The notes under the pieces were generated by a model, which did no database searches, was not told the DNA's origin, and saw nothing but the letters and a program-made list of their open reading frames with translations. From positions 3,841,501 through 3,905,500 of the forward strand of contig NZ_CP080025.1 in NCBI RefSeq assembly GCF_020463795.1: 64,000 nucleotides of DNA, written 5' to 3'. The translations under genes were made by a program, and so were the position numbers. Positions 38,669 to 60,802 of the stretch are shown here, one piece after another (within the stretch, counting starts at the first letter, position 1; each line of letters starts with the position of its first letter). Source of the stretch: Echinicola marina (GTDB lineage Bacteria > Bacteroidota > Bacteroidia > Cytophagales > Cyclobacteriaceae).

Positions 38669-39499
38669 ATGAAATTCATTTATATCCTATTATCTATCTG
38701 GTTGGGCTTACTTTCCTGCAAAGAAGGTGAGCAGCCTACACCAGAAATAGAAAAACCAAAAAGCACAAAGGAAATCACCGTATTGTCCTATAATATCCAC
38801 CATTCCAATCCACCATCCAAGCCTGATTTGATTGACTTGGATGCCGTGGCCAAGGTAATCAAAGAGAGCAATGCTGATATTGTGGGTTTGCAGGAAGTCG
38901 ATGTGTATACCGAGCGGTCCGGAACAGATTTGCATATGGCAAAAAAATTGGCCGAGATGACTGGTTTTGATTATTTTTATTTCTCCAAGGGTATTGATTA
39001 TAGGGGAGGTGAATATGGAACAGCCATTTTGTCCAAGTATCCTATATCAAATGAAAAGACGATCAAGCTACCTAAAGAAGAGGGAACTGAACAGCGTACC
39101 CTTTCTTTGGTAACGGTAAGTCTTACTGAAGAATCAAAGCTTTATTTTGGAAATACCCATATGGATTTTACGAGTGAGTCCAATGGCTTAGCGCAAGCAA
39201 AATTTATCACCAAATATTTTGATGAATCTACGGATAATGAAATTCCCGCAATTGTAGTGGGTGATTTTAATGCCGTTCCCAGCAGCCCGGCCATACTTCA
39301 TTTTGACAGGTATTTTGAACGGAGCTGTAAAACAGGCTGCGCCAATACCGCTTCTACAAATAATCCAAGAAAGATCATTGATTATATCATCTATAAATCC
39401 TCTAAGGATTTTGATGTGTCATCCCATCAGGTGATCGATGAAACTTATGCCTCAGATCATTTCCCCGTTTTGGCAAAGCTGGTGTTAAAGGAGTTTTGA
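38669..39499 (+). CDS. EEP-fold (endonuclease/exonuclease/phosphatase) lipoprotein, first paralog
   Basis: 276 residues with lipobox GLLSC (Cys17). EEP motifs are all visible: VLSYNIHH, VGLQEVD with the metal-binding Glu, NTHMDF, VVGDFNAVPSSP, DYIIYK and the terminal SDHFPV with the catalytic Asp-His. The superfamily covers sphingomyelinases, inositol phosphatases and nucleases. An extracytoplasmic lipoprotein encoded next to a GDPD gene is more likely a phosphodiesterase or phosphatase on a small ligand or lipid head group than a DNA enzyme. It is clearly related to the protein at 52864, which belongs to the third sigma/SusCD locus. Confidence 0.9.
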   Translation: MKFIYILLSIWLGLLSCKEGEQPTPEIEKPKSTKEITVLSYNIHHSNPPSKPDLIDLDAVAKVIKESNADIVGLQEVDVYTERSGTDLHMAKKLAEMTGFDYFYFSKGIDYRGGEYGTAILSKYPISNEKTIKLPKEEGTEQRTLSLVTVSLTEESKLYFGNTHMDFTSESNGLAQAKFITKYFDESTDNEIPAIVVGDFNAVPSSPAILHFDRYFERSCKTGCANTASTNNPRKIIDYIIYKSSKDFDVSSHQVIDETYASDHFPVLAKLVLKEF

Positions 39500-45563: not shown

Positions 45564-46529
45564 ATGAAAGAAGAGAGACCTCATCCTCGTGAATTAAAAA
45601 TGCTGATAGATAAAGCGCTTCAAGGAAAGTTAACAGCTGAAGAGAAGATGATTCTGGATCAGTGGTATACTTCCTTTGAGGAAGTGCTTCCTGTGGTTTA
45701 TAGTGATCTGTCGAAGGAAGATTTCAAAATGAAATTTTATCAGGAAACCTTGGAAAAGATCGAAAATAATAAAGCTAGGATCAATTCACCTCGTTTTTTA
45801 TGGCGTAAAATTGCCGCATCTGTGGTATTGTTGGCTGCAACGATTTCAGTATTGTTTTATATTCTTCCCAAGGGAGCCAATGATTTATCCTATATAGAAT
45901 ATAGTACAGGTAAAGGTGAACGAAAGTCAGTATTACTCAGTGATGGAAGCAAGGTGGTCTTAGATGGTCATACTCAGCTGCTTGTAGCTGATAATTTTGA
46001 AGGACAGAGAAATGTAAAGCTAATAGGAAGGGCATTTTTTGAAGTGAAAAGGAATGAAGCTTCACCTTTTACCATTAGCACAGAAAGCCTTAAGACTACC
46101 GTATTGGGAACCTCATTTGTAATAGATGCGCTGCCTGGTGGGCAAGAAGCAGTTGCGGTAAAATCTGGACGGGTACAAGTGGCATATGGAATAAAGGATG
46201 AGGTGGTTTTACAGCAAGGTGAGCAAGCCCTGCTGGTAGAAAATACGCTAGGACATTCGGTAATTAAAAATCCGTTGGAAGTATTCGGATGGATGGAGAA
46301 TAAATTGGTCTTTTATAATGATGATTTGGATGAAGTAGCGAGCAAAATAGGAAATTGGTATGGGGTAAAAATTGATCTGAAAGTAAGCCCCGAAAATACA
46401 TGCTTGCTCACAGGAACCTATAGTAATCTCAAACTCAGTGAACTTCTGGAAGTAATAAGTTTTTCAATCCCAATAAAATATGAAATCAATGATGCAACTG
46501 TAAAAATTATTTCGGAAGCATGTGAATAG
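45564..46529 (+). CDS. FecR-family anti-sigma factor (locus 4)
   Basis: 321 residues. A membrane segment lies at about 84-103 (IAASVVLLAATISVLFYILP). The periplasmic FecR domain has KSVLLSDGSKVVLDGHTQLLV, GRAFFEVKRN and VLGTSFVIDALPG, and the C-terminal DUF4974-like region has VASKIGNWYGVKI and ISFSIPIKYEIN. It should bind the sigma factor encoded upstream and be relieved by the STN-domain SusC encoded downstream. Confidence 0.92.
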   Translation: MKEERPHPRELKMLIDKALQGKLTAEEKMILDQWYTSFEEVLPVVYSDLSKEDFKMKFYQETLEKIENNKARINSPRFLWRKIAASVVLLAATISVLFYILPKGANDLSYIEYSTGKGERKSVLLSDGSKVVLDGHTQLLVADNFEGQRNVKLIGRAFFEVKRNEASPFTISTESLKTTVLGTSFVIDALPGGQEAVAVKSGRVQVAYGIKDEVVLQQGEQALLVENTLGHSVIKNPLEVFGWMENKLVFYNDDLDEVASKIGNWYGVKIDLKVSPENTCLLTGTYSNLKLSELLEVISFSIPIKYEINDATVKIISEACE

Positions 46530-46554
46530 GTAGAGCTGCTGCAACAGCCCTACC
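46529..46554 (+). terminator. Hairpin at the fecR stop, before susC (locus 4)
   Basis: GGTAGAGCTG and CAGCCCTACC pair at 9 of 10 positions around a 6-base loop. The 5' arm starts at the last base of the fecR stop codon. No T-run follows. It is weaker than the hairpins in the same position of the other two loci. Confidence 0.5.
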
Positions 46555-46610
46555 AAATCATGGCTAAAGCAATTAAGGACATTACTTTAACTCAAGAACA
46601 AGTCTAAATT

Positions 46611-49600
46611 ATGAAAAAAAACCTAATTATCCTGCTTATGCGGATAACAACGAGAATGCTTTGTTTGGCTTTAATGATAGGTTTCAGTGTTTCGCTTAGT
46701 TTAGCGGGAAACCTTAGGGCCCAAGAAATCGAAGAGACGATGATTAATATAAAAGATCATCATTATACGATTTTAGAATTAATTAAAATAGTTGAAGACC
46801 AGTCGGAATTTTATTTTTCCTATAGGGGAGATCTTGATCTGAGGACCTCCATAGCAGTAAATCCGGGGAAAATTAATTTAAAGCGCCTATTGGAGCGTGT
46901 TTCAGACCAATCAGATTATGCATTCAAACATGTCAATAATTCTATTGGCCTCAGTAGGAAAAAGCAATTGAAAGCGGCCATCCGGAAAGAAGTTACTGTG
47001 ACAGGCAAGGTGAGTACAAAGGAAGGAGAAAGCCTTCCTGGAGCATCTGTGTCGGTAGAAGGGACCACCAAAGGAACAATAACAGATGTGGACGGTAATT
47101 ATATCATCAGTGTAGATGAAGGAGCTGTATTGGTTTTTGGGTATTTGGGATTTAAAACCCAAAAGGTGACCGTTAAAAGTCAATCCAAGATCGATATCCG
47201 ATTGGAAGCGGATGAAACTTCCCTTGATGAAGTGGTGGTGGTAGGTTTTGGTACCCAAAGAAAAGTCAGTTTGGTAGGTGCGCAGTCTACCGTAGAGGCG
47301 CAGGATTTGCAGATTCCCTCAGGTAACCTGACGAATTCGCTTGCCGGCAGACTTTCTGGGGTGGTTGGGGTCCAAAGAACGGGCGAACCTGGTTTTGATG
47401 ATTCAGATATTTGGATCCGGGGGATTTCTACTTTTAGCCAAAGTTTAAGCAAACCACTTATTTTGGTAGATGGAGTTCCTAGAGTTATGGCCAATGTAGA
47501 TCCTGAAGATATTGAGAGCTTCACGGTGTTGAAAGATGCTTCTGCGACGGCAGTTTATGGTGTACGGGGAGCAAATGGTGTGATCATTATTAAGACAAAA
47601 AGCGGAGCTGTAGGCAAGCCGAAATTTTCTTTTCGCTATTATGAAGGACTGACCAAATTCACCAAGTTACCAGAGTTTGCTGATGGACCTACCTATATGC
47701 GTATGTCCAATGAGGCGATTAGTAACCGAGGCGGAGTACCCATATACAGCGAGGATGTCATTCAGATGACCGCAGATGGAACAGATCCCTATCTGTACCC
47801 CAATGTAAATTGGATGGATGAGCTGTTCAATGATTTTGGACATCAAAGAAGGGCCAATCTCAATATAAGTGGAGGATCAGAGAATACTACTTTCTATGTA
47901 GGAACCAGTTATTTTGATGAAATAGGCTTATATAAACAAGGAGAAGCTGCTAACTATAACAATCAAATAGGTTTTAAGAGATATAATTTGACGGCCAATT
48001 TGGGTATTAAAGCCTCCAATACCACCAAGGTAGATTTAGGGATACAAGGTTATCTTGCCAATGCCAATTATCCCGGTTCTGGGCAAGCGACCATTTTTGA
48101 AAATGCTTTTTATATGACTCCTGTGGTGCATCCTGTTGTCTACGAAAATGGTGCTATAGCCGATCAAAGACAAGGGAGTTTGGCTAATCCCTGGGGGCAC
48201 CTTACTGCTACGGGATATGCTAACCAGTGGAGAAATCAGTTGTTTTCCAATTTAAGAGTCACACAGGAAATTCCAGCCATAAAGGGTTTGTCAGCTACTG
48301 CCATGTTTTCTTTTGATGTATATAATTATACCAGTATGAGAAGGACGAAGAGGCCGGATACTTTTTTGGCAACAGGGAGGGATGAAGACGGTAATATGTT
48401 ATATGAGGAAACCTATAGAGGAGAGCGGTATTTAAGTTTTTCTAGGAACAGTTCCGGCGAAAGGACCTTGTACTGGGAAGCTGCTTTAAAATACGATCGA
48501 TATTTTGACGATAAGCATGAGGTAACAGGAATGTTATTGTTCAATAAAAGTGATAAGTTAAATTCCCAAGCCGGAGATTTTAACAGTTCATTGCCCTATC
48601 GGTATTTGGGGATTTCCGGTCGTGGTACCTATGGTTATGCCGACAAGTACTTCTTGGAATTGAATTTTGGTTATAACGGATCGGAAAATTTCAATCCTGA
48701 GAACCGTTTCGGATTCTTCCCAGCGATGGGCTTAGGATGGGTAGCGAGTGAGGAAAGTTTTTTTGAGCCGTTGAAAGACGTGATTCCCATGCTTAAGTTC
48801 CGTTTTAGCCATGGCAAAGTGGGTAACAGTCAGATAGTGGGGAGGCGTTTTGCTTATCTGACGACCATTGATCAAACAGGCGGATATTCTTATGGAAAGG
48901 AGCGGAACAATAATTATGGGGGCTATGATATTGGGGATTATGGTGTAGATGTTACTTGGGAAACCGCAACCAAAACCAATATAGGTGTTGATTTGTATAG
49001 CCTAGGCAATGACCTGAACTTGCAGGTTGATTATTTCAAAGAGCTACGTGAGGGGATTTTTCTGAACAGGGAAGCTGTTCCAGCTTATGTTGGTTTACAA
49101 AGTGCACCATATGGCAACTTGGGAATAATAGAGAATAAAGGGATAGATGCTTCTTTGACCTTTTCCAAACGTTTTAAAAAATTCCATTTAAAAGCACTGG
49201 GTAATTTCACCTTTAGCAGAAACAAGGTCATTGAAAATGATAAACCTGATCCGACTTATCCATGGTTAGACCAAAAGAACAGGAAGGTAGGGCAGCGTTT
49301 TGGATATAATGCTTTAGGACTTTTTGAAAGCGAAGAAGAGATCAATAACGGCCCTGTGCATCCTGGATTGGTGCAAGCGGGGGATATTAAGTTTCAGGAT
49401 GTTAACGGAGATGGTTTGATCAATGACTTCGATAGGATTCCCATCGGATACGGAACAGTTCCTGAAATCGTTTATGGTTTTGGTCTGACCTTGGGTTATG
49501 GGAATTTCACCCTTTCTTCACTTTTCCAAGGTGTAGGGAATGTAGATATTTTTATGAATGGAGAAGGGTTTATGCCATTTATGGTTTCTATGAGCAGGGG

Positions 49601-49946
49601 CAATTTATTGAGCAATATTGAGGACAGGTGGACTGTGGAAGATCCCCGTCAAGATGTTTTTTATCCACGTTTGTCAGATGGAAGCCCCAATAGTAACTAT
49701 GCTACCAGTAGTTGGTGGTTAAAAAACGGTAAATACCTACGATTAAAAAATGTGCAATTGACTTATAATCTTCCCAAAACGTTTGTTGATCGGCTGAAGC
49801 TAGATAATGCAAGTTTGTTTTTGACGGGCTATAATGTGCTGACCTGGAGTCCATTTGATTTTTGGGATGTAGAGTTAGGGGATGGAAGAGGTGCCAGGTA
49901 TCCAAATGTTTCCAGTTATACCTTGGGAATTGATTTAAAATTCTAA
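46611..49946 (+). CDS. SusC-like TonB-dependent receptor with STN domain (locus 4)
   Basis: 1111 residues: signal segment (MLCLALMIGFSVSLSLAGNLRA), STN domain at about 45-120 (YTILELIKIVEDQSEFYFSYRG, LKRLLERVSDQSDYAFKHV), carboxypeptidase-like domain at about 127-200 (VTGKVSTKEGESLPGASVSV), plug with LKDASATAVYGVRGANGV near residue 305, and a beta barrel ending in LGIDLKF. It is the receptor and signalling partner of the FecR encoded upstream. susD follows within about 40 bp. The downstream EEP enzyme and metallophosphoesterase suggest a phosphate-bearing ligand. Confidence 0.95.
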   Translation: MKKNLIILLMRITTRMLCLALMIGFSVSLSLAGNLRAQEIEETMINIKDHHYTILELIKIVEDQSEFYFSYRGDLDLRTSIAVNPGKINLKRLLERVSDQSDYAFKHVNNSIGLSRKKQLKAAIRKEVTVTGKVSTKEGESLPGASVSVEGTTKGTITDVDGNYIISVDEGAVLVFGYLGFKTQKVTVKSQSKIDIRLEADETSLDEVVVVGFGTQRKVSLVGAQSTVEAQDLQIPSGNLTNSLAGRLSGVVGVQRTGEPGFDDSDIWIRGISTFSQSLSKPLILVDGVPRVMANVDPEDIESFTVLKDASATAVYGVRGANGVIIIKTKSGAVGKPKFSFRYYEGLTKFTKLPEFADGPTYMRMSNEAISNRGGVPIYSEDVIQMTADGTDPYLYPNVNWMDELFNDFGHQRRANLNISGGSENTTFYVGTSYFDEIGLYKQGEAANYNNQIGFKRYNLTANLGIKASNTTKVDLGIQGYLANANYPGSGQATIFENAFYMTPVVHPVVYENGAIADQRQGSLANPWGHLTATGYANQWRNQLFSNLRVTQEIPAIKGLSATAMFSFDVYNYTSMRRTKRPDTFLATGRDEDGNMLYEETYRGERYLSFSRNSSGERTLYWEAALKYDRYFDDKHEVTGMLLFNKSDKLNSQAGDFNSSLPYRYLGISGRGTYGYADKYFLELNFGYNGSENFNPENRFGFFPAMGLGWVASEESFFEPLKDVIPMLKFRFSHGKVGNSQIVGRRFAYLTTIDQTGGYSYGKERNNNYGGYDIGDYGVDVTWETATKTNIGVDLYSLGNDLNLQVDYFKELREGIFLNREAVPAYVGLQSAPYGNLGIIENKGIDASLTFSKRFKKFHLKALGNFTFSRNKVIENDKPDPTYPWLDQKNRKVGQRFGYNALGLFESEEEINNGPVHPGLVQAGDIKFQDVNGDGLINDFDRIPIGYGTVPEIVYGFGLTLGYGNFTLSSLFQGVGNVDIFMNGEGFMPFMVSMSRGNLLSNIEDRWTVEDPRQDVFYPRLSDGSPNSNYATSSWWLKNGKYLRLKNVQLTYNLPKTFVDRLKLDNASLFLTGYNVLTWSPFDFWDVELGDGRGARYPNVSSYTLGIDLKF

Positions 49947-49984
49947 CCGCAATTACGATGAATAGCAATAAAGAATTTATAAGC

Positions 49985-51814
49985 ATGAATAAGTATAAGT
50001 TTTCTTGGGTTATGGCTTTTCTGATGGTTTTCATACAGGGATGTAATGAAGATTTTTTGGACCAGGTCCCGGATGATATCATGACTTTGGAAGAAGTTTT
50101 TAATAGAAAAGACTTATCGGAATCCTATTTGGCCAATGTATACAATTATCTTAGGGATGAAGCCCATAGAACGAACAATACGCCATGGGATGTGATTTCT
50201 GATGATATTGATGTGTCCCAGAAAAACAATCCATTTCGTGTAAATTTGGGAAACTGGAGTGCCGCTTCCAATTATTGGGTGTTCTGGAATCATTATTATA
50301 AGGGAATAAGGTCTGCGACGACTTTTCTGAATAATATAGATGGTAATGAGCAGATACTTCAGGATAGGGCAGGACCAGCACTTATCATTCAATATAAGGC
50401 AGAAGCGAGGTTTTTAAGGGCTTATTTTTATTTTGAGCTTCTTAAACAATATGGTCCGGTGATTATTCTGGGAGAGGATGTTATTGATCCTGATCTGTCC
50501 ACAGAGGATCCGCTGATGCAAGCTGCCCGTACCCCTTTTGACCAGTGTGTTGATTATATTGTCGATGAGTTGGATATGGCAGCGGAAGATTTGCCCTTGC
50601 ACTATACCGATCAGCCTGACCAGGATTATGGGAGAGCGACCAAATTAATGTGCATGGCAGTGAAAAGTAGGATGCTACTTTATGCGGCCAGCCCTTTGTT
50701 TAATGGTAATGGTGATTATAATGACTTCAAAAATCAGGATGGTACCAGCTTGATGAACACCCAATATGATGCGTCCAAGTGGAAGCGGGCAGCAGATGCG
50801 GCAAAAGAAATTATTGATTTGGGCGTATTGTCATTGTACAAAGAATATGATTCAAATGGAGAATTGGATCCTTTGCTGTCATACAGGAATCTCTTTTTGA
50901 AACCTTGGAACGCTGAATGGATTCTTTCCAGAAACAGTAATTCCCTTTCCAATTATGAAAGGTCACTTACTCCGCGCCTGGCCAACGGTTATGCCAGTAT
51001 GGGGCCTACTCAAAAATTAGTGGATACCTATCATATGGCCAATGGACAAGTACCTGTATTGGGCTATCAAAATGATGGTACCCCAATAATCAACACTGCT
51101 TCAGGTTATACAGAAGATGGTTTTAGTGAAGAAGCTGAGGGGTATACCAAAGCAAATACTTTTAATATGTATGTGGGGAGAGAGCCTCGTTTTTATGCCT
51201 CAGTTACATATAGTGGTAGCGATTGGATCAACACTTCATCTAGTCTGGGCGTAAGGGAAATAGAATTATGGTATAATGGCGAGTCAGGGAAAGGAGGTTC
51301 TCATGATTATTCAGAGACAGGTTATTTGTTTAGAAAAAATGTACATCCAGACAGTAATCCCCGTGAATCCAAATATGTTTCAAGGCCACATGTGATGTAC
51401 CGTTATGCGGAAATTCTTTTGAACTATGTGGAGGCATTAAATGAATATGATCCTGGAAATACAGCGGTCTTGGCCTATTTGAATTTGATACGGGAAAGGG
51501 GAGGAATTCCCGGCCATTTATCTGACAATGGGCAGAGTGGTATGAGAGAACGGATTTGGAGGGAAAGGCGAATTGAATTGGCCATGGAGCATTTGAGGTA
51601 CTTCGATACTAGGAGGTGGAAGATTGCTGAAGAAACCGATGCGGGGCCTTTTTGGGGAATGAATGTCAATGCAGGAAATTTTGCTACTGATCCGGCATTT
51701 TTCCAAAGGACGATTTTTGAAAACAGGATATTTAGGAAGGCTTTTTATTTGTTTCCAATTCCCCAAGCAGAAATTGAACGAAATCCAAATTGTGTCCAAA
51801 ATCCAGGATGGTAA
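49985..51814 (+). CDS. SusD/RagB-family lipoprotein (locus 4)
   Basis: The ATG at 49985 gives a compact lipoprotein signal (VFIQGC, Cys20) followed by NEDFLDQVPDD; an ATG at 49958 would add nine residues. The mature protein of about 590 residues is among the larger SusD types. RPHVMYRYAEILLNYVEALNEY, WRERRIELAMEHLRYFDTRRW and VQNPGW mark the family. It sits on the cell surface with the SusC encoded upstream. Its end runs directly into the next lipoprotein gene, only 8 bp away. Confidence 0.95.
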   Translation: MNKYKFSWVMAFLMVFIQGCNEDFLDQVPDDIMTLEEVFNRKDLSESYLANVYNYLRDEAHRTNNTPWDVISDDIDVSQKNNPFRVNLGNWSAASNYWVFWNHYYKGIRSATTFLNNIDGNEQILQDRAGPALIIQYKAEARFLRAYFYFELLKQYGPVIILGEDVIDPDLSTEDPLMQAARTPFDQCVDYIVDELDMAAEDLPLHYTDQPDQDYGRATKLMCMAVKSRMLLYAASPLFNGNGDYNDFKNQDGTSLMNTQYDASKWKRAADAAKEIIDLGVLSLYKEYDSNGELDPLLSYRNLFLKPWNAEWILSRNSNSLSNYERSLTPRLANGYASMGPTQKLVDTYHMANGQVPVLGYQNDGTPIINTASGYTEDGFSEEAEGYTKANTFNMYVGREPRFYASVTYSGSDWINTSSSLGVREIELWYNGESGKGGSHDYSETGYLFRKNVHPDSNPRESKYVSRPHVMYRYAEILLNYVEALNEYDPGNTAVLAYLNLIRERGGIPGHLSDNGQSGMRERIWRERRIELAMEHLRYFDTRRWKIAEETDAGPFWGMNVNAGNFATDPAFFQRTIFENRIFRKAFYLFPIPQAEIERNPNCVQNPGW

Positions 51815-51822
51815 TAGAAAAC

Positions 51823-52803
51823 ATGAGAAAAATGAATTCAAAATTTAAAAATAATTGGTTTTTGGGCCTCATGTGCTTGCTTTCTGCTTGCGAAATAGAG
51901 GATTTAGAGGTGCCCAATAGTAGTGATTATTCTAAGGTTTATATCAGTGCTGCTGTCGAAAATCCAGTTGGTTTTACGGTTGCTGTAAAAGATGAGTGGT
52001 TCCCTATTCCTTTGGGGGTTGGTTATGGAGGGCTGACATTGCCTCAAAATGACTTGCAGGTAAAATTACTTGTAGAACCCCAGCTCGCTGCTGAGTATAA
52101 TGAAAATAATGGAACCAACTATCCGTTAATGCCCGAGGATAGCTACGAATTGGAAAATGATGTGCTGACTATCCTTAAAGGGGAAAATAGCAGTGGGAAT
52201 GCAATTATTAAGTTTAACCCTTTAAGATTTACCGGTCTTAGGCCCCATATACTTCCTGTTTCTATTTCTGAAGTGGATGGACAAGCACAAATTAATGAGG
52301 ATCTTAAAACTGTTTACCTACTTGTTACAGGCAGGTATGAAGAGAATCCTTTTACCAAATTTTCCCAAGAAAACTGGACAATAATGGATGTTTCATCTGA
52401 TGAGAATGATGGTCCAACTACAGGTGGGCGTGCTCATCATGCCATTGATGGAAGTTTGGATACTTTTTGGCACAGCCAATGGAGGAGGGATGAGAACGGG
52501 AACAGGCCAGGCCATCCTCATTATATTGTCATTGATATGAATGAGACAAAGCCCATTCATGGACTTGAGCTCTTTGGGAGGACCAATCAAATTGGGGGAA
52601 ATGGCAATCCAAGGGACATATATGTGGAAGTGAGTACAGATGGAGAGCACTGGACAGGAACCTTGGATTATGTTTTGGAAAATACAGCATCCAACACCAT
52701 TTACTTTCCTGAAGTTTTGGAAGCCAGGTATTTTAAGATTACCGTCAAGGCAAGTCATCAGGATGTTTATAGAACGCATATAGCAGAGATTGAAGCTTTC
52801 TAG
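51823..52803 (+). CDS. Surface lipoprotein with DUF1735-like and F5/8 type C domains
   Basis: The start at 51823 gives a lipoprotein signal (CLLSAC, Cys23). The frame opens at 51790 inside the end of susD with a TTG, which is unlikely to be used. After the signal, about residues 40-155 resemble the DUF1735 (BT_3987-like N-terminal) domain: YISAAVENP, LVEPQLAAEYNENNGTNY, LPVSISEVDG. About 175-326 form a discoidin-like F5/8 type C domain (HHAIDGSLDTFWHSQW, HYIVIDMNETKPIHGLEL, ARYFKITVKAS, HIAEIEAF). It has no catalytic domain and fits a SusE/F-type surface binding protein. The domain borders are approximate. Confidence 0.85.
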   Translation: MRKMNSKFKNNWFLGLMCLLSACEIEDLEVPNSSDYSKVYISAAVENPVGFTVAVKDEWFPIPLGVGYGGLTLPQNDLQVKLLVEPQLAAEYNENNGTNYPLMPEDSYELENDVLTILKGENSSGNAIIKFNPLRFTGLRPHILPVSISEVDGQAQINEDLKTVYLLVTGRYEENPFTKFSQENWTIMDVSSDENDGPTTGGRAHHAIDGSLDTFWHSQWRRDENGNRPGHPHYIVIDMNETKPIHGLELFGRTNQIGGNGNPRDIYVEVSTDGEHWTGTLDYVLENTASNTIYFPEVLEARYFKITVKASHQDVYRTHIAEIEAF

Positions 52804-52811
52804 GCCTAATG

Positions 52812-52839
52812 CCGTATGGGGCGGATTTGCTCCATAAGG
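52812..52839 (+). other. Intercistronic hairpin before EEP gene 2
   Basis: CCGTATGGGGC and GCTCCATAAGG pair at 9 of 11 positions around a 6-base loop, 8 bp after the upstream stop codon and about 25 bp before the EEP start. It has no T-run. It may be a processing or stability element. Confidence 0.5.
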
Positions 52840-52863
52840 TTATGTTATTTGTAGCAATCATAG

Positions 52864-53721
52864 ATGATGAAAGAAACAGGAAGAAAGATAAGTAGATTAT
52901 TAAAACCTTGGGTGACCAAGGTTTTAATAATCTTAATGCTGGCAGCATGTAGTGCAGAAGAGGCTGTAGTCCCGGACAAGCCAAAGACCAATGGTCTGAA
53001 AATCAAAACCATGTCTTACAATATTTATGGGGCAAGGCAGGGAGGGATTCCTGATTTGGCTGCATTAGCGGCGGTAATAAAGGAGTCAAATCCTGATTTG
53101 GTAGCGTTACAAGAAGTGGACCGGTTTACAGAGAGGAACGGTAAAGAGGTAGATATTGCCAAGGAATTAGGGGAAATGTGTGGGATGGAATATTTCTTTG
53201 CCAAGGCAATGGATTTGGGAAGTGGTGAATATGGAGATGCGATACTGTCAAAATTCCCTATTGAATCCAAGCACGCATTTAATATGGGTGTGGATCCCTT
53301 ATTGGGAGGAGAGCAGCGTTCCGTGGCTGTCATCAAGGTAGCTATAGAGGGGCAGGGACTTTATTTTGCCAGTACTCATTTGGACCATTTAGGTAATGAA
53401 CAAAACAGGTTGAAACAGGCACATGAGTTGAATGATATCGTGAAGCAATTTGACGGACCTATGATTCTGGGTGGTGATTTTAATGCTGTGCCAGATTCAG
53501 AAACCATTTCTATCATAAAGCAGACCCTCGTTCTTGGATGTAAGAACAATAACTGTAGTCAGCATACCTTTTCCACCTCCAAGCCAAACCGGACCATCGA
53601 TTATATTTTTTACAAGGGTATAAATAGACTTAGAGTAGAAAACTATGGTGTTTTCGATTGGGCCGACAGAGAATCGGATCACTTCCCAGTTGTAGCCACA
53701 TTTAATTTAAAACAGGATTAA
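52864..53721 (+). CDS. EEP-fold (endonuclease/exonuclease/phosphatase) lipoprotein, second paralog
   Basis: 285 residues with lipobox LAAC (Cys29). Motifs match the paralog at 38669: MSYNIYG, VALQEVDRFTERNG, SGEYGDAILSKFPI, STHLDHLGN, LGGDFNAVPDSE, IDYIFYK and SDHFPVVATF. It should hydrolyse a phosphate ester or phosphodiester outside the cytoplasm. The signal-peptide region is odd: codons 11-24 are encoded by a perfect 18-bp inverted repeat (52894-52933), and the hydrophobic core (VLIILMLAAC) is short and mostly encoded by its right arm. The metallophosphoesterase gene starts 5 bp after its stop, so the two are surely co-transcribed. Confidence 0.9.
   Translation: MMKETGRKISRLLKPWVTKVLIILMLAACSAEEAVVPDKPKTNGLKIKTMSYNIYGARQGGIPDLAALAAVIKESNPDLVALQEVDRFTERNGKEVDIAKELGEMCGMEYFFAKAMDLGSGEYGDAILSKFPIESKHAFNMGVDPLLGGEQRSVAVIKVAIEGQGLYFASTHLDHLGNEQNRLKQAHELNDIVKQFDGPMILGGDFNAVPDSETISIIKQTLVLGCKNNNCSQHTFSTSKPNRTIDYIFYKGINRLRVENYGVFDWADRESDHFPVVATFNLKQD
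52894..52933 (+). promoter_or_regulatory. Perfect 18-bp inverted repeat with GTGA loop inside the EEP gene 2 leader
   Basis: The arms AGATTATTAAAACCTTGG (52894-52911) and CCAAGGTTTTAATAATCT (52916-52933) are exact reverse complements with a 4-base loop GTGA, a GNRA-type tetraloop in RNA. The structure begins 30 bases into the coding region. It could hinder early elongation, protect the mRNA or be a protein-binding site. No similar structure is seen in the paralogous gene at 38669. Confidence 0.85.
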
Positions 53722-53725
53722 GATC

Positions 53726-54931
53726 ATGAAAAAAAGTGCCAATAAAAGTAGGAGAAAGTTCATCAATGGTCTTGGGAAAGCAGCCATATTCGGGGTTGCA
53801 ACGCCTGCTTCAGCCAGTTTTGAACTGTCCAAAAATGAAGCCATTCGGACTGAAAATTATTCAGCACCCTATCTTCAAAATTTGAAAGAAGATGGGGTAA
53901 GTATCATGTTTATCACCCAAGAGAATTCCTTGAGTTGGGTACAGTATGGTGAAGAAAGTTGTGATAAAAAGGCATTTACAAAGATAGATGGATTTATCCA
54001 GGCCAATAACCGTTTGAATAAAGTTCAACTGAAAGGCCTGAAGCCCAATACAAATTATCAGTACCGGGTTGTTTCCAAGCCATTGATCAAGTTTGAACCC
54101 TATGACCAACAATTTGGAGAGGAGATTCAAGGAGAAGTATATCATTTTAGCACTCCTGCAGCAACTGGTGAAGCTGTCTCATGTATTATCTTGAACGATA
54201 TTCATGACCGACCCTATTCATTTGGAGAATTGTTAGGATTGAACAAGGACTTTCATTATGATTTTGTTGCGCTGAACGGAGATATGTTTGATTACCAGTC
54301 AGACGAACAGCAGTTGATAGACCATCTGATAAGGCCATGTACAAGTTTGTTTGCCAGTGAAAAGCCCTTTATAATGATTAGGGGAAATCATGAAACGAGA
54401 GGAAGGTATGCGAGGCAATTTAAAGATTATTTTGATTACGAAGGAAATGAGTACTATTTTTCTTTCAGACAAGGACCTGTACATTTTATAGTTTTGGATT
54501 CAGGAGAGGATAAGGAAGATGATCATGAGGCTTATCATGGAATGGTTGATTTTGATGCTTTCAGAGAACAGCAGGCTGCATGGCTGGAAAATGAGTTGGA
54601 AAACAGTGCTTACAGCACCTGTAAATATAAAGTTGTCTTAATGCATATTCCTCCTTATCATTCTGGCGACTGGCATGGAACCACCCATTGCAGGGAGGTG
54701 TTTTCTCCCATTTTTGAAAAGCATCGGATCGATATGGTGATCTCAGGCCATACCCACCGTTATGGAATTCATAAGGCCAATGCCGAACATAATTATCCAA
54801 TCATTATAGGAGGTGGTCCTAAGACTGGTAGCAGGACTTTGATCCAGTTGGATGCCAATCTTGAAAGGTTGTATATCAAAATGCTCAACGATCAGGGAGA
54901 AGTGGTAGGGGAGAATGTGGTGAAGGGTTAG
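53726..54931 (+). CDS. Tat-exported metallophosphoesterase, purple-acid-phosphatase-like
   Basis: 401 residues with a probable twin-arginine signal (KSRRKFINGLGKAAIFG, then PASA). About 45-150 is a fibronectin-like N-terminal domain as in purple acid phosphatases (PYLQNLKEDGVSIMFITQ, LKGLKPNTNYQYRV). About 155-370 is the calcineurin-like metallophosphoesterase domain with metal-ligand motifs LNDIHD, LNGDMFDY, IRGNHETRG, LMHIPPYH and SGHTHRYG. Tat export fits a metal centre loaded before export. It probably releases phosphate from the product of the EEP enzyme encoded 5 bp upstream. It is the last gene of the locus. Confidence 0.9.
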   Translation: MKKSANKSRRKFINGLGKAAIFGVATPASASFELSKNEAIRTENYSAPYLQNLKEDGVSIMFITQENSLSWVQYGEESCDKKAFTKIDGFIQANNRLNKVQLKGLKPNTNYQYRVVSKPLIKFEPYDQQFGEEIQGEVYHFSTPAATGEAVSCIILNDIHDRPYSFGELLGLNKDFHYDFVALNGDMFDYQSDEQQLIDHLIRPCTSLFASEKPFIMIRGNHETRGRYARQFKDYFDYEGNEYYFSFRQGPVHFIVLDSGEDKEDDHEAYHGMVDFDAFREQQAAWLENELENSAYSTCKYKVVLMHIPPYHSGDWHGTTHCREVFSPIFEKHRIDMVISGHTHRYGIHKANAEHNYPIIIGGGPKTGSRTLIQLDANLERLYIKMLNDQGEVVGENVVKG

Positions 54932-55003
54932 CAGAAAAGGCTCCGGGAGGGGCTTCTGACCATTGGATGAATGCTTGGTTGAGCTGTCTGTTGTGGTAAG
55001 CTT

Positions 55004-56053
55004 CTAATGATGGATGTTATTTCTGTTTTTCTTTCTTAATGAAGAATCCCTGATGATAAGGTCTGCCTTTAAGGTGATTGTATTGGTATTTTGTAAAACA
55101 TCGTCTCCGGTTTCATTTAGTCGGGTAATCAGGTTTTTCATGGCTATTTCCCCCATTTCGTAGCCGGGGTAGTTGATAGTGGTGAGATTAGGGGCTATTA
55201 GCCTGGAGACGGTGTCATTATTAAAGCCCACCACGGCCATGTCCTTTGGGATTTTTACGCCAGCTTTTTTAAGTTGGATCAGGCAGCTTGCGGCACAGCT
55301 GTCATTGGATACAAAGAGCCCATCTGGTAAGGGATTCATAGAAAGGATTTTTCGGGAAATGTCTATACCTGCGGTTTCGTTCAGATCAGATATAATGATA
55401 TTATCCTCCTCGAAGGCTATGCCATTGTCCATCAAAGCATATTTATAGCCCTTTAGTCTGTCGGCATATACATTTATCTGAGGATTGCCCAAAACATGCA
55501 CAATGTTCTTGCAGCCTTGATCAATCAGATGTTTAACGGCATGATAAGCTGCTTTCGAATTGTCTATCATTACTCCGGTCATATTGCTTTCTTCTGCCAC
55601 GCGATCAAAGAAGATCACAGGGGTGCCCTTTTGGAGGAATGGTTTGAAATGGGCTATTTCTTTGGTGCTGCTGGCCAAGGACACCAGTAAGCCATCTACA
55701 CGGCTATTATACATCGATTTGGCATTGGACTTTTCTTTATCTTCAGATTCAAGGGACTGGCTAATGATCAGGTTGAAACCAGCTTCATTGGCCACTTTTT
55801 CCATTCCCGCAAGCACGGAAGATTGGAAGGGACTGTTGAGCCTAGGGACGATTACACCAATATTATGTGTGGATTTGCTACGGAGGTTGGAGGCGAAGAT
55901 ATTGGAACGATAGCCTAATTTATCTGCGGCCTCATAAATCTTTTTCTTGGTCTTTTCCTTTACTGCGGGGTGTTTGTTCAATGCCCTGCTCACAGTAGCA
56001 GGGGAGACCCCTGTTTCTTTGGCTATATCATAAATTGTTATTTCTTTGCTCAT
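55004..56053 (-). CDS. LacI-family transcriptional regulator
   Basis: 349 residues. An N-terminal helix-turn-helix (TIYDIAKETGVSPATVSRALN) and hinge helix (YRSNIFASNLRSK) precede a periplasmic-binding-protein-like ligand domain (IGVIVPRLNSPFQSSVLAGME, VDGLLVSLASS, LFVSNDSCAASCLIQLKKAG, VVGFNNDTVSRLIAPNLTTI). It is transcribed away from the GH115/glucuronate genes, and LacI-type palindromes lie in the shared intergenic region. It is therefore the likely regulator of that operon, responding to a glucuronate-derived ligand; the ligand is inferred. Confidence 0.93.
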   Translation of the reverse strand: MSKEITIYDIAKETGVSPATVSRALNKHPAVKEKTKKKIYEAADKLGYRSNIFASNLRSKSTHNIGVIVPRLNSPFQSSVLAGMEKVANEAGFNLIISQSLESEDKEKSNAKSMYNSRVDGLLVSLASSTKEIAHFKPFLQKGTPVIFFDRVAEESNMTGVMIDNSKAAYHAVKHLIDQGCKNIVHVLGNPQINVYADRLKGYKYALMDNGIAFEEDNIIISDLNETAGIDISRKILSMNPLPDGLFVSNDSCAASCLIQLKKAGVKIPKDMAVVGFNNDTVSRLIAPNLTTINYPGYEMGEIAMKNLITRLNETGDDVLQNTNTITLKADLIIRDSSLRKKNRNNIHH

Positions 56054-56225
56054 CTTAATTATGCCTTTGGTGAGTAGCCCTTCTCTTTTTTATTTCAGGT
56101 CTTTTTGCATTTTAATGATTACTAGATCAGACCGGTATTAAGTATTAAATAAGTGCCCAATGTCAAAGTTATTAAAGCCCTGTTTAGGCAGTACATTATC
56201 ATGGTATAAAATTAGCATATGATAA

Positions 56226-56239
56226 TGAAAACGGTTTCA
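56226..56239. promoter_or_regulatory. LacI-type operator in the divergent region
   Basis: TGAAAACGGTTTCA is a 14-bp palindrome with one mismatched symmetric pair, of the classic LacI-family operator form. It is 173 bp upstream of the regulator start and 430 bp upstream of GH115. It is a good candidate site for the regulator encoded at 55004. Confidence 0.6.
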
Positions 56240-56400
56240 TTTATTTCATAATATATTTAAATTTTTTAGTTAATACTATTTTATATGCACCTGCTTTTAG
56301 GGGATAGGTGAAGGGCTTGATTTGCTTATTAGAGCTGAAAATTGATCGTTTTAGCTTATTTGCAGATTAGAATATTTTTTGTTAATTCTTAAAATAAAAA

Positions 56401-56414
56401 TGAAACCGATTGCA
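56401..56414. promoter_or_regulatory. Second, weaker LacI-type operator
   Basis: TGAAACCGATTGCA shares the TGAAACCG half-site with the LacI consensus and with the site at 56226. It is 255 bp before the GH115 start and could allow looping between two sites. Confidence 0.45.
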
Positions 56415-56668
56415 TAAATTGAAATTTATTTTCAGGTTTGTAATGCTGGTATTGTGAGTGGAGATAGTGGGAAAAGCAGGATATCCCAATGGTGTATGCC
56501 CCATAAACCAGTATGCAGGATTGATGGAAAATGCTGAATATTGATTGTGAAGAGGAAGGTCCTGTAAATGCGAAAGAGCTTTGTTCTCCTGTAGAAAAGA
56601 TTAGAATAGTGGAAACAAATAAAGCCCATTTTGAGATCAATAGAAATGCCTAAAAATAAACCTGAACT

Positions 56669-59600
56669 ATGATTAGCATGAAATCCGTATGCAGTTTTTT
56701 GTTTCTTATCACTATCCTGTTTTTGTTGGTCGTGGAGAGGAGCTTTGCTTTTAAACAGCCACTTAAGGAAAGTCTTCTGACCTTTGAGGAGGCTAAGGTG
56801 CCCAAGGATGTTGTGTATGATAAGCAGGAAAGGGATTTGGCCATCCATAAATTTACCCTTGAAGAAAAGAAAAGTGTCTTGTTTGAAAAGAATGGTCATA
56901 GCTCCGTGTTACTTGATCCAGGAGAAAGTGAAGTGGTCCATGCGGCATTCGCTATGCTCCAAGGGGATATTAAAACTGTTTTTGATGCCCAACTTGACCT
57001 GACTTCTGAAATATTACAAAATACCAATGTGGTGGCAGGAACAGTCGGTAAAAGCTGGGTGATTTCAGCAATGGAAGAAAAGGGGCTTGTTGACCTTTCT
57101 TCCCTTAAAAGTCAGTGGGAGACCTATTTGATTAAAAATATAAATTGGAAGGGGAGACAGGTACTGGTAATTGCAGGAAGTGATAGCAGGGCGACCGCTT
57201 ATGGTTTGCTAGAATTATCCAGGATGGTGGGAGTTTCGCCTTGGGTATGGTGGGCAGATGTTGTTCCTGAAAAGAAAGAGATCTTTGAAATTCCTAAGGA
57301 GCTATTGGTACAAGATGCACCAAAGGTGAAGTTTAGGGGGATTTTTCTAAACGATGAAGACTGGGGATTGCAGCCTTGGGCAGCCAAGACCTTTGAGCCG
57401 GAGACAGGAGATATAGGCCCCAAAACCTATGAAAAAATCTTTCAGCTCCTGTTGCGATTGCGTGCCAATGCTATTTGGCCAGCCATGCATCCTTCAACCA
57501 AAGCTTTCTATTCCATAGATGGCAATAAGGAAATGGCTGCAAAGTACCAGATTTTTGTGGGGACTTCCCATGCAGAACCCATGTTGAGAAATAATGTAGG
57601 GGAATGGGACCATGATAGATATGGGGAGTACAATTATGCCAGTAATCGCGATATGGTAAAGGAATATTGGCAGGAGCGTATTGAAGAGCTGGATGATGAG
57701 GACCGCTATATAGTGACCCTTGGGATGCGTGGGATCCATGATTCCGGAATGCAGGGGGACTTTACTGCAGAGGAAAAAGTGGATATGCTGGAGACCATTA
57801 TCGGTGATCAAAGGAAAATGCTTCAGAATACCTTGAAAAAAAAGGTCACAGGGATACCACAGGCATTTGTTCCTTATAAGGAAGTTTTAGAAATATACAG
57901 TGAAGGTGCCAAGATCCCAGAAGATATCACACTTGTCTGGCCTGATGACAACCATGGCTATATCCGTCAGCTGTCCAATAACTATGAGCAGCAACGATCA
58001 GGTGGAGCAGGAGTCTATTACCATATTTCCTATTGGGGAAGACCTCATGATTTCTTATGGTTGGAATCCATTCCAGTAGCACTTATTTGGGAGGAGATGA
58101 ACAAGGCTTATCACAGCAATGCCAAGGACATCTGGATCGTAAATGTCGGTGATATTAAGCCCAATGAAATTGGAATGAACTTTTTTCTGGAAATGGCATG
58201 GGATCCAGACCAATTTTCAGCAGAAGATCTTAATAGTTATTATTCACGCTTTGCCGAAGAGCAATTTGGAAAAAGCTATTCGGGGGAAATTGGGGAAATA
58301 CTTGCCCGCTATTTCCAGTTGGGCTTTTCAAGGAAACCAGAACATATGGGATGGTCAACTATCTATCCTAATACACCCATACAAGATCCTGAGCTTTCCC
58401 TTTTTGATCAGGGCGATGAAGTGCAGCAGCGTTTAGATGCCTATATTCTGTTGGAAGAACAGGTAGCAACCTTACAAAAGAAATTACCTGAGCATTTAAA
58501 GGATGCATTTTATCAGTTGGTGGGTTATAAAGTATTAGGGGCGGCCAATATGAATAAAAAGCTGCTATACGCCTATAAGAGCCGTGCTTATGCCGAGCAA
58601 GGGCGGGCCAGTGCTCAAATCTATGCGGACAAGTCAAAGGAAGCATTTGAGCAAATTAAGGAAATTACCCAGCGCTATCATCAACAAAATGGCGGGAAGT
58701 GGTCTTATATGATGACTTATAATCCAAGGAAGCTTCCTGTTTATAGCATGCCTGAAACAGGCTCCATGACAAAACCTTCTAAAAAAGGAGGCGGAGGAAT
58801 CGTTCCTGAAGGCTTTTTCAGACCGATTGCTCCAGGTCAGGAAGTTACTTTGCCCAGCTTTATTTCCTCCACTGACCGGGAATATTTTATAGATGTTTTT
58901 AGCACGGGGCAGGAGGCCATTAGCTGGACAGCCCAATCCAACGATCCATGGATTAAAATTTCCGCCAAAGAAGGAGAAACATCTTCAGAAGAGCGCATAT
59001 GGGTTTCAGTGGACTGGTCACTTTTCCCTATGGGACAGGAAAGCAGCTCATTGATCAATATCAGTTTGGACGAGGAAAACTATTCCATTAAGGTACAAGC
59101 CAAGCAGTTGGATTTAAGGGATAGGCAGCAAGTATTTGTGGAAGATAATGGCATAGTTTCGATGGAGGTGGAGCATTTTAGTGAAGTACTTCCTACTGAA
59201 GGGGCTGAATGGAAACTGATACAGGGTTTAGGGAGACAAAGTGATGCAGTAGGCACTTTCCCTGTATCCTCTGGTTCACTGCTTGGCCGAGAAGAGCATG
59301 CTCCAGCTTTGAAGTATGAATTTATCAACGAATCTACTGGTGAGTTTACCCTGAGGATGCATTGTTTGCCGTCGCAGCCAATTAATGGGGATTATAGGCT
59401 CAGGTTTGCCGTAAGCATAGATGGTGGAAGTCCAATTCTTATGGATGCCTCGCTCCAGGAAGTGATGGATGAGCATAACCGTGAATGGAATAGCAATGTG
59501 CTTAGAGCTGTTAATTATGTGGAGACGGAGATCCATCTTCCATTTTCAGGGAAGCATAGTTTAAAAATCACCATGGTGGATCCAGGAGTGGTATTGGATA

Positions 59601-59674
59601 AAATAGAGCTTATCAAAGCAGGTCAGTCTTCAGGTTATTTTGGAGCAAGGGAAACAAAAATCAATAATAGATAA
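56669..59674 (+). CDS. GH115 xylan alpha-1,2-glucuronidase
   Basis: 1001 residues with a signal peptide (FLFLITILFLLVVERSFAF). After an N-terminal domain, the GH115 core is recognisable from VIAGSDSRATAYGLLELSRM, VSPWVWWADVVPEKK, FRGIFLNDEDWGLQPWAAKTF, RLRANAIWPAMHPSTKAFY, FVGTSHAEPMLRNN, LGMRGIHDSGM and VWPDDNHGYIRQL. The C-terminal GH115 domain carries EVEHFSEVLP-type beta-sandwich sequence to the end. The family removes (4-O-methyl-)glucuronic acid side chains from glucuronoxylan, including internal ones. It heads an operon with two glucuronate-pathway enzymes and a divergent LacI regulator, which supports this role strongly. Confidence 0.95.
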   Translation: MISMKSVCSFLFLITILFLLVVERSFAFKQPLKESLLTFEEAKVPKDVVYDKQERDLAIHKFTLEEKKSVLFEKNGHSSVLLDPGESEVVHAAFAMLQGDIKTVFDAQLDLTSEILQNTNVVAGTVGKSWVISAMEEKGLVDLSSLKSQWETYLIKNINWKGRQVLVIAGSDSRATAYGLLELSRMVGVSPWVWWADVVPEKKEIFEIPKELLVQDAPKVKFRGIFLNDEDWGLQPWAAKTFEPETGDIGPKTYEKIFQLLLRLRANAIWPAMHPSTKAFYSIDGNKEMAAKYQIFVGTSHAEPMLRNNVGEWDHDRYGEYNYASNRDMVKEYWQERIEELDDEDRYIVTLGMRGIHDSGMQGDFTAEEKVDMLETIIGDQRKMLQNTLKKKVTGIPQAFVPYKEVLEIYSEGAKIPEDITLVWPDDNHGYIRQLSNNYEQQRSGGAGVYYHISYWGRPHDFLWLESIPVALIWEEMNKAYHSNAKDIWIVNVGDIKPNEIGMNFFLEMAWDPDQFSAEDLNSYYSRFAEEQFGKSYSGEIGEILARYFQLGFSRKPEHMGWSTIYPNTPIQDPELSLFDQGDEVQQRLDAYILLEEQVATLQKKLPEHLKDAFYQLVGYKVLGAANMNKKLLYAYKSRAYAEQGRASAQIYADKSKEAFEQIKEITQRYHQQNGGKWSYMMTYNPRKLPVYSMPETGSMTKPSKKGGGGIVPEGFFRPIAPGQEVTLPSFISSTDREYFIDVFSTGQEAISWTAQSNDPWIKISAKEGETSSEERIWVSVDWSLFPMGQESSSLINISLDEENYSIKVQAKQLDLRDRQQVFVEDNGIVSMEVEHFSEVLPTEGAEWKLIQGLGRQSDAVGTFPVSSGSLLGREEHAPALKYEFINESTGEFTLRMHCLPSQPINGDYRLRFAVSIDGGSPILMDASLQEVMDEHNREWNSNVLRAVNYVETEIHLPFSGKHSLKITMVDPGVVLDKIELIKAGQSSGYFGARETKINNR

Positions 59675-59678
59675 ATCA

Positions 59679-60482
59679 ATGTTTGAAGTAGTAGATAAAG
59701 TCATCGTCATAACCGGGGGGACTGGCGTCTTGGGAAGTAATATCGCAAAATCTTTGCTTGAGGCAGGCGCGAAGGTAGTGATCCTCGGACGTAATCAAGA
59801 CAAGCTAAACAGTGTCCTTGACACCTTGGGCAAGCAGGGGGATCTGATTGGTTTTTCTTGTGATGTGTTGGACAAGAGCAGGCTTCATAAAGTCCGTGAC
59901 GCAGTAATACAAAAATGGGGATCTATTCAGGTGCTGATCAATGTGGCTGGGGGAAATATGGCGGAGGCCAATGTGAATGAGGACCAGACCGTCTTTGACA
60001 TTGATGTAGCTGAGCACAAAAAGGTAATAGACCTCAATTTAGATGGAACTATAGTTCCCAGTTTGGTTTTTGGGAAAGCTATAGCCGAAGGAGGGGAAGG
60101 GAGTATCATCAATATATCCTCCATGGCGACTTATTCTGCGATAAGTCGTGTAATGGGCTATTCGGCGGCCAAGACCGGAATCAATAACTTTACCCAATGG
60201 ATGGCCATGGAAATGGCATTGAAATTTGGAGAAAAAGTGAGGGTAAATGCGATTGCGCCTGGTTTTTTTATAGGAGAGCAAAATCGAAAAGTATTGATCC
60301 ATCCTGATGGTTCTTATACCGATCGCAGTAAGAAGGTATTGGCCCGAACGCCCATGAAGCGTTTTGGACATATCGATGAGTTAAATGGTGCCGTACAATT
60401 TTTGTGCTCCGAGGCAGCCTCCTTTATCACGGGCGTAATTCTTCCTGTAGATGGTGGTTTTAGTTCATTTAGTGGGGTTTAG
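59679..60482 (+). CDS. SDR-family oxidoreductase, probable D-mannonate oxidoreductase
   Basis: The ATG at 59679, 4 bp after the GH115 stop, is preferred to an in-frame ATG at 59640 that lies within GH115. The 267-residue product has a classical SDR Rossmann fold: VITGGTGVLGSNIA for NAD(P) binding, NVAGGN, the catalytic Ser in NISSMATYSAISRV, YSAAKTG with catalytic Tyr and Lys, and the C-terminal FITGVILPVDGGFSSFSGV. SDR proteins paired with uxuA commonly interconvert fructuronate and mannonate, replacing the unrelated UxuB. That specific reaction is taken from context. Confidence 0.85.
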   Translation: MFEVVDKVIVITGGTGVLGSNIAKSLLEAGAKVVILGRNQDKLNSVLDTLGKQGDLIGFSCDVLDKSRLHKVRDAVIQKWGSIQVLINVAGGNMAEANVNEDQTVFDIDVAEHKKVIDLNLDGTIVPSLVFGKAIAEGGEGSIINISSMATYSAISRVMGYSAAKTGINNFTQWMAMEMALKFGEKVRVNAIAPGFFIGEQNRKVLIHPDGSYTDRSKKVLARTPMKRFGHIDELNGAVQFLCSEAASFITGVILPVDGGFSSFSGV

Positions 60483-60802
60483 TAGAGGAAGTTTATTGGG
60501 CGAATACATTTTTACGCTAGGAAAATTGAGATGAGGAATCAGGCTAAGATAAGTGGTGTCAAATATTAAACCCGCATTATGCATTAGGAATCGTTATGAG
60601 AACTGAAACTACAAGAAAATCAGGCTGTTTGGAGATTGAATCATAGCATCGCTATGGTGAAATCGAAAACAGCAGCGAAGCGACTGATTTTAAAGTAGTT
60701 TCAGGTCGTAATAGATAGGCTAATGCATAATGCGGGTTAAAAAAGTAAAGTTAAAGAAGAACCAAAATATACGGTCTTAAAGACCATCAATGAATATATA
60801 AA
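60483..60802. other. Intergenic region containing repeat copy 2
   Basis: The 320 bp between the SDR and uxuA genes is largely occupied by the 176-bp palindromic element; the remaining 60 bp before uxuA show no clear signal. Confidence 0.5.
60566..60741. repeat. 176-bp near-palindromic repeat element, copy 2
   Basis: Outer arms TTAAACCCGCATTATGCATT and the reverse complement (AATGCATAATGCGGGTTAA) match almost perfectly. Inner stems are CTGAAACTAC with GTAGTTTCAG, AAAATCAG with CTGATTTT, GCTGTTT with AAAACAGC, and CATAGC-ATC-GCTATG at the tip. It has the same length as copy 1 at 14243. The CTGAAACTAC stem differs from copy 1 (CTGAAAATGC) with matching changes on the partner strand, so pairing is conserved. 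It separates the SDR and uxuA genes. Confidence 0.88.

Follow-up and report, generated by a model that had tools for sequence, protein, structure and literature searches.

A perfect 18-bp palindrome in the signal-peptide region of an Echinicola marina gene: a candidate young product of template switching

How does an exact palindrome come to lie inside a protein-coding sequence, and does it do anything there? The question is raised by a stretch of 64,000 nucleotides from the genome of Echinicola marina (contig NZ_CP080025.1, positions 3,841,501 to 3,905,500; the whole stretch is here called the window), in which a gene encoding an EEP (endonuclease/exonuclease/phosphatase) family protein carries, near its start, an inverted repeat of 40 bases in total, with arms that are complementary at 18 of 18 positions (Table 1). 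We put at a little under 60% the probability that this palindrome arose recently, in this lineage alone, by template switching at an inverted-repeat seed and was tolerated in the signal peptide. It looks most like a further case of a familiar type of mutation, and not like a conserved switch. A previous interpretation made from the letters alone (the sequence-only reading) had reported a perfect 18-bp inverted repeat with a four-base loop of GNRA type, placed within codons 11-24 of the EEP gene in a lipoprotein signal sequence, and this description proved exact: the arms match fully, GTGA fits GNRA, and in the open reading frame (ORF) 52864-53721 the repeat starts with codon 11, ends on the first base of codon 24 and precedes a lipobox-like LAAC.

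The hairpin is real and not a chance occurrence. As RNA, the 40-mer folds at -24.1 kcal/mol; in its 131-nt RNA context the z-score is -4.4, with none of 200 shuffled sequences equally stable, and as single-stranded DNA in a 60-nt context the z-score is -8.3. The chance expectation comes from a census of 79 stretches of 20 kb plus the window (1.644 Mb, 29% of the genome), in which every perfect hairpin with a loop of 3-10 was recorded and ORFs were called by a mechanical rule (opening at the first ATG, 80 aa or more). Third-order Markov copies of this sample (three replicates) held a mean of 2.3 hairpins with 12-bp arms and none longer, and by extrapolation arms of 18 bp are expected 0.0003 times in the sample, or about 0.001 times per genome. 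The real sample held 80 perfect hairpins with arms of at least 12 bp, 72 of them outside called ORFs and eight inside. Ten have arms of at least 18 bp; eight of these lie outside called ORFs, in the kind of place expected for terminators, and the other two are the hairpin in the EEP leader and a 19-bp one close to where a long (putative) ORF is called to begin. With ten such hairpins in the sample, the one in the EEP leader is therefore unusual for its coding location rather than for its length.

Two further observations were made in the census. The 27 coding hairpins with arms of at least 10 bp seemed enriched near gene starts, seven of them starting within 100 nt of a called start, against 9.2% of coding bases (nominal P 0.009); this figure was not relied on, because the first-ATG rule stretches ORFs into intergenic, terminator-bearing DNA. 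Outside called ORFs, four near-identical 36-base palindromes were seen (L062:14948-14983, L118:13023-13058, L124:18776-18811 and L135:19822-19857), of the type TTTCCCTTCCC..GGGGCTAGCCCC..GGGAAGGGAAA, which on the 29% sample are likely to represent a dispersed palindromic repeat family of the genome.

The palindrome of the EEP leader belongs to no such family. The sequence-only reading had suggested a search of the genome for the same 40-mer; in the BLAST search that was run with a 131-bp query, the only matches were the locus itself and its own palindromic match. The stem core, sought with up to two mismatches, was found at 29 places against 14 for a reversed control, once exactly (in the EEP leader) and twice with one mismatch. 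The hairpin is thus single-copy, and a dispersed repeat, either REP or MITE-like, was rejected, as the core pattern yielded no family at up to two mismatches.

Nor is the palindrome conserved. Orthologs were searched for in 59 relatives, 11 genomes of the genus, 295 of the family and one scan of genome contigs, and a single close ortholog was found, in the congener G009 (69% protein identity, same gene order); the next best matches had at most 44% identity. The neighbouring proteins are closer between the two genomes: 93% identity for the SusC-like protein, 91% for the SusD-like, 83% for the F5/8 type C domain protein and 79% for the phosphatase. The G009 leader, MMLNTKKLPYLLYSRVLFWTILIMVIWIISC when read from the aligned ATGATG, has 30 residues before the Cys, compared with 28 in the E. 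marina gene. It lacks the palindrome; the longest perfect stem in its first 110 nt is one of 6 bp, where the count begins at an in-frame ATG upstream of the aligned one and the true start in G009 is not certain. No perfect leader stem longer than 10 bp was present among 29 homolog loci (the G009 ortholog, a paralog in the source genome and more distant genes, the gene itself being excluded), two of which, L016 and L023, have a called start that does not give a comparable leader; the reading of leaders left out nine further loci, L025-L032, whose matches are weak and for the most part partial, and L035, which came from the contig scan and is 41% identical. A conserved leader hairpin, or conserved cis-regulatory RNA, was rejected for the homologs examined. 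At L084, a distant EEP homolog from the genome G062, the leader contains a perfect stem of 10 bp (TCATCTTCCGATGCGGAAGATGA) directly past the lipobox region, of unrelated sequence.

These results bear on the regulatory role proposed in the sequence-only reading, namely control of translation or mRNA decay of the EEP-phosphatase pair, which would have been refuted by orthologs without pairing at this site together with no effect on expression. The first of these two is what was found in G009. Comparison with homologs thus gives no support to a possible effect on translation, attenuation or decay.

A more probable explanation is a copying event. A perfect or improved inverted repeat with a short spacer is one mark of template switching, and it is present here (18 of 18, loop of 4). 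Beyond the arms only two of 24 flanking positions pair, and edges as abrupt as these fit one copying event of limited length, not a longer palindrome in decay. During replication the polymerase would have come to a halt at a short inverted-repeat seed (CCTTGG..CCAAGG may have served), used the nascent or the complementary strand as template for a short distance and then switched back, leaving one arm as a precise reverse complement of its partner. The switch, its direction, its seed and its near-neutrality are inferred, the switch itself from the perfection, sharp edges, uniqueness and youth of the palindrome and from the documentation of the mechanism elsewhere.

The position of the palindrome suggests why it may have persisted. 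The N-terminus MMKETGRKISRLLKPWVTKVLIILMLAAC-SAEE reads by eye as a lipoprotein signal peptide, with Cys29 (also by eye) at 52948-52950. Signal peptides conserve general character rather than sequence, and little is needed in their n-region besides positive charge. The left arm, encoding RLLKPW, falls within this n-region, and the hydrophobic run VLIILMLAAC remained; the palindrome may have been tolerated for these two reasons. Removal of the residues RLLKPW would leave the peptide with a charged start and an unchanged hydrophobic run, and the G009 leader illustrates how freely the EEP leader has changed. The suggestion, in the sequence-only reading, of a recent inverted insertion that remade the signal peptide is supported in kind. 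A young inverted event agrees with a repeat that is single-copy, absent in G009, perfect and abruptly edged; an added insertion of 40 bp agrees less well with a leader of 28 residues before the Cys where the ortholog has 30, and this near-equal length makes replacement by template switching likelier.

Other palindromes inside genes of the same genome offer a comparison. The sample contained seven with arms of at least 12 bp, and three, of 15, 13 and 13 bp, were compared with congeners; all three are perfect only in the source genome. The 15-bp palindrome (L064:16367-16399) lies in the middle of a gene shared by all 11 genus genomes, and the ten congeners pair at 6-10 of its 15 positions. Compared with the source, their right arms differ at 1-4 positions and their left arms at 3-10, the right arm being the nearer in nine of the ten; the exception is G009, with three differences on the left and four on the right. 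The gene with one of the 13-bp palindromes (L075, compared by eye) is present in seven of the 11 genus genomes, all of which were aligned. In one arm, the two sequences closest to the source (86% protein identity) have the same three base differences from it, and each of the three differing bases of the source complements the other arm. The comparison palindromes fit a conversion of imperfect into perfect repeats, and show in part the clustered one-arm changes, complementary to the opposite arm, that template switching would leave.

It should be noted that several points weigh against template switching as the origin. The comparison palindromes were chosen for being perfect in this genome, so that relatives must look worse, and this selection bias is uncontrolled. 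At L075, two of the three codons are also found in L152, a relative further removed, so that the change may have run in either direction; and the second 13-bp palindrome (L111:13356, read by eye in an alignment of eight of 12 loci, four distant ones being excluded) differs from its relatives in both arms. In the EEP gene itself, the two arms match the G009 leader no better than shuffled letters do (10 of 18 positions, P 0.65, and 9 of 18, P 0.98): the leader has diverged too far from G009 for any mutation to be read from it, and the event cannot be reconstructed. Finally, an RNA hairpin under selection would also be expected to have a perfect stem and a GNRA loop.

This last reading, a functional cis-acting RNA hairpin gained in the lineage, could take the form of an attenuator or partial terminator within the operon, or of a stem acting as a brake on the decay or translation of the EEP-phosphatase pair. 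As an attenuator, when the EEP gene is untranslated, the stem with TTTTAATA past its G+C core would stop RNA polymerase, and a closely following ribosome would prevent the stop. The strength of the stem speaks for such a function, as does the appearance of the core, AAAACCTTGG-GTGA-CCAAGGTTTT, in which an A-tract, a G+C-containing stem with a short loop and a T-tract succeed each other as in intrinsic terminators, intra-operon attenuators and many long hairpins outside the ORFs of this genome. In addition, the hairpin comes soon after a gap of 60 nt, the largest among the genes from 49958 to 54931, which has a stem-loop of its own. Unlike a terminator or attenuator, however, it lies in coding sequence, its forward T-tract is weak and it is unconserved, being missing in G009 and in the other 28 homolog leaders. 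The best eight bases near it hold five T on the forward strand and six on the reverse, whereas the 72 long hairpins outside called ORFs, counted on their better strand, have at least six in 56 cases and seven or eight, a terminator-like count, in 40. A terminator scan flagged the hairpin on the minus strand and not on the forward strand, on which no strong T-tract follows the stem, and a search of 46000-60500 against Rfam gave no RNA family at E up to 1. As for translation, the strong hairpin that the mRNA should be able to form starts 31 nt into the ORF, which is past the usual footprint of an initiating ribosome, so that any effect on expression would probably be modest; and since, in addition, the start region (52844-52893) folds weakly alone, at -3.6 kcal/mol, the start codon should not be hidden. 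We therefore regard a functional RNA hairpin as unlikely. A combination of the two, in which one mutational event placed a strong hairpin in the signal-peptide region and the lineage now uses it as a control point within the operon, either in tandem with the intergenic stem-loop at 52815-52836 (weaker than that of G009) or replacing it, would be a long shot.

The remaining alternatives have less in their favour. The GTG in the loop (52912) is in frame and could be the true start, with the product MTKVLIILMLAAC; the hairpin would then be a structure of the 5' leader with the start codon displayed in the loop, which the GTG fills, and the short form would retain a charged start, the hydrophobic run and the lipobox. 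It would leave only 12 residues before the Cys, compared with 16 in four homologs from the genus (L007, L008, L033 and L034) and 17 in L006, and the ATGATG at 52864 has a counterpart in G009 at about the same distance from the Cys. The ATGATG is the better start, and initiation in the loop is very improbable. Less credible still is a mobile palindromic element (REP or MITE-like) or an operator, for example for the LacI-type gene at 55004-56053: the size would suit a REP and a regulator-like gene is indeed near, but arms of 18 bp are long for the operator of one dimer, the BLAST search and the core matches point to a single copy, and the leader is no longer than in G009. A fold-back artefact of sequencing or assembly is about as hard to believe. 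Inverted duplications can be artefacts, and a second assembly of the species for comparison was not found; against this, the reading frame is intact, the signal peptide is sensible, and the genome consists of one contig that is 100% complete with 0.14% contamination.

Template switching, which we prefer, has precedents. Mutation by template switching at quasipalindromes is established in Escherichia coli and known within genes (lacZ reporters, thyA; PMC7202029); the difference is that the imperfect precursor is invisible in our case, the leader being too diverged from G009. In coding genes of Saccharomyces cerevisiae, PMC8604942 describes homogenization of arms by template switching, shown between strains and parental nodes. 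The EEP leader is similar to those examples in having a perfect inverted repeat within a gene, with neighbouring codons changed, and unlike them in that the event is deduced from the end state alone. Template switching also makes RNA hairpins, and a single event can yield a perfect stem (PMC8794818); unlike the RNA genes described there, the hairpin of the EEP leader lies in coding sequence and is not conserved. Searches of the literature on template switching with inverted repeats, on hairpins downstream of start codons, on SusC operons with attenuation and on template switching with signal peptides found nothing on the EEP-leader case among the papers listed. The locus is a candidate natural example of how, through a copying slip, a perfect hairpin can arise in a single step within a gene of a bacterium. 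It also prompts one to ask whether signal peptides, tolerant of sequence change, let such hairpins survive. Should the hairpin have acquired a role, which we consider quite doubtful, it would illustrate the birth of an mRNA regulatory structure inside a coding sequence.

Table 1. The palindrome, its host gene and the neighbouring features, in window coordinates.
Feature	Position	Strand	Remarks
Left arm	52894..52911	+	AGATTATTAAAACCTTGG; codons 11-16, RLLKPW, signal-peptide n-region
Loop GTGA, GNRA type	52912..52915	+	contains in-frame GTG (codon 17)
Right arm	52916..52933	+	CCAAGGTTTTAATAATCT; codon 18 (second base) to codon 24 (first base); opens the hydrophobic run, KVLII
EEP family protein gene, carries the hairpin	52864..53721	+	285 aa; Pfam PF03372 Exo_endo_phos, E 3.4e-24
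Lipoprotein-type signal peptide including Cys	52864..52950	+	MMKETGRKISRLLKPWVTKVLIILMLAAC; lipobox judged by eye
SusC-like gene, upstream	46611..49946	+	named by eye from translation; G009 protein 93% identical
SusD-like gene	49958..51814	+	Pfam SusD_RagB, E 9.3e-63
BT_3987-like_N + F5/8 type C domain protein gene	51823..52803	+	start by eye; ORF listed from TTG 51790
Intergenic stem-loop, between F5/8 type C and EEP genes	52815..52836	+	separate from the 40-base hairpin
Calcineurin-like metallophosphatase gene, purple-acid-phosphatase type N-domain	53726..54931	+	Pfam PF00149, E 3.7e-21; PF16656, E 5e-8
LacI-type regulator-like gene	55004-56053		type named by eye

In addition to the genes of Table 1, the window contains another EEP gene, matched at 38693-39493, which is 43% identical to the one with the hairpin; this accounts for the name 'EEP gene 2' that the sequence-only reading gave to the latter. 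The intergenic stem-loop upstream of the hairpin has a counterpart in G009: the segment 52806-52850 folds at -15.7 kcal/mol, and a 13-bp stem-loop at the same place in G009 (L004, about 1394-1426) at -19.8. The letters of the two are partly different, and it is therefore conceivable that the structure is kept while its sequence changes.
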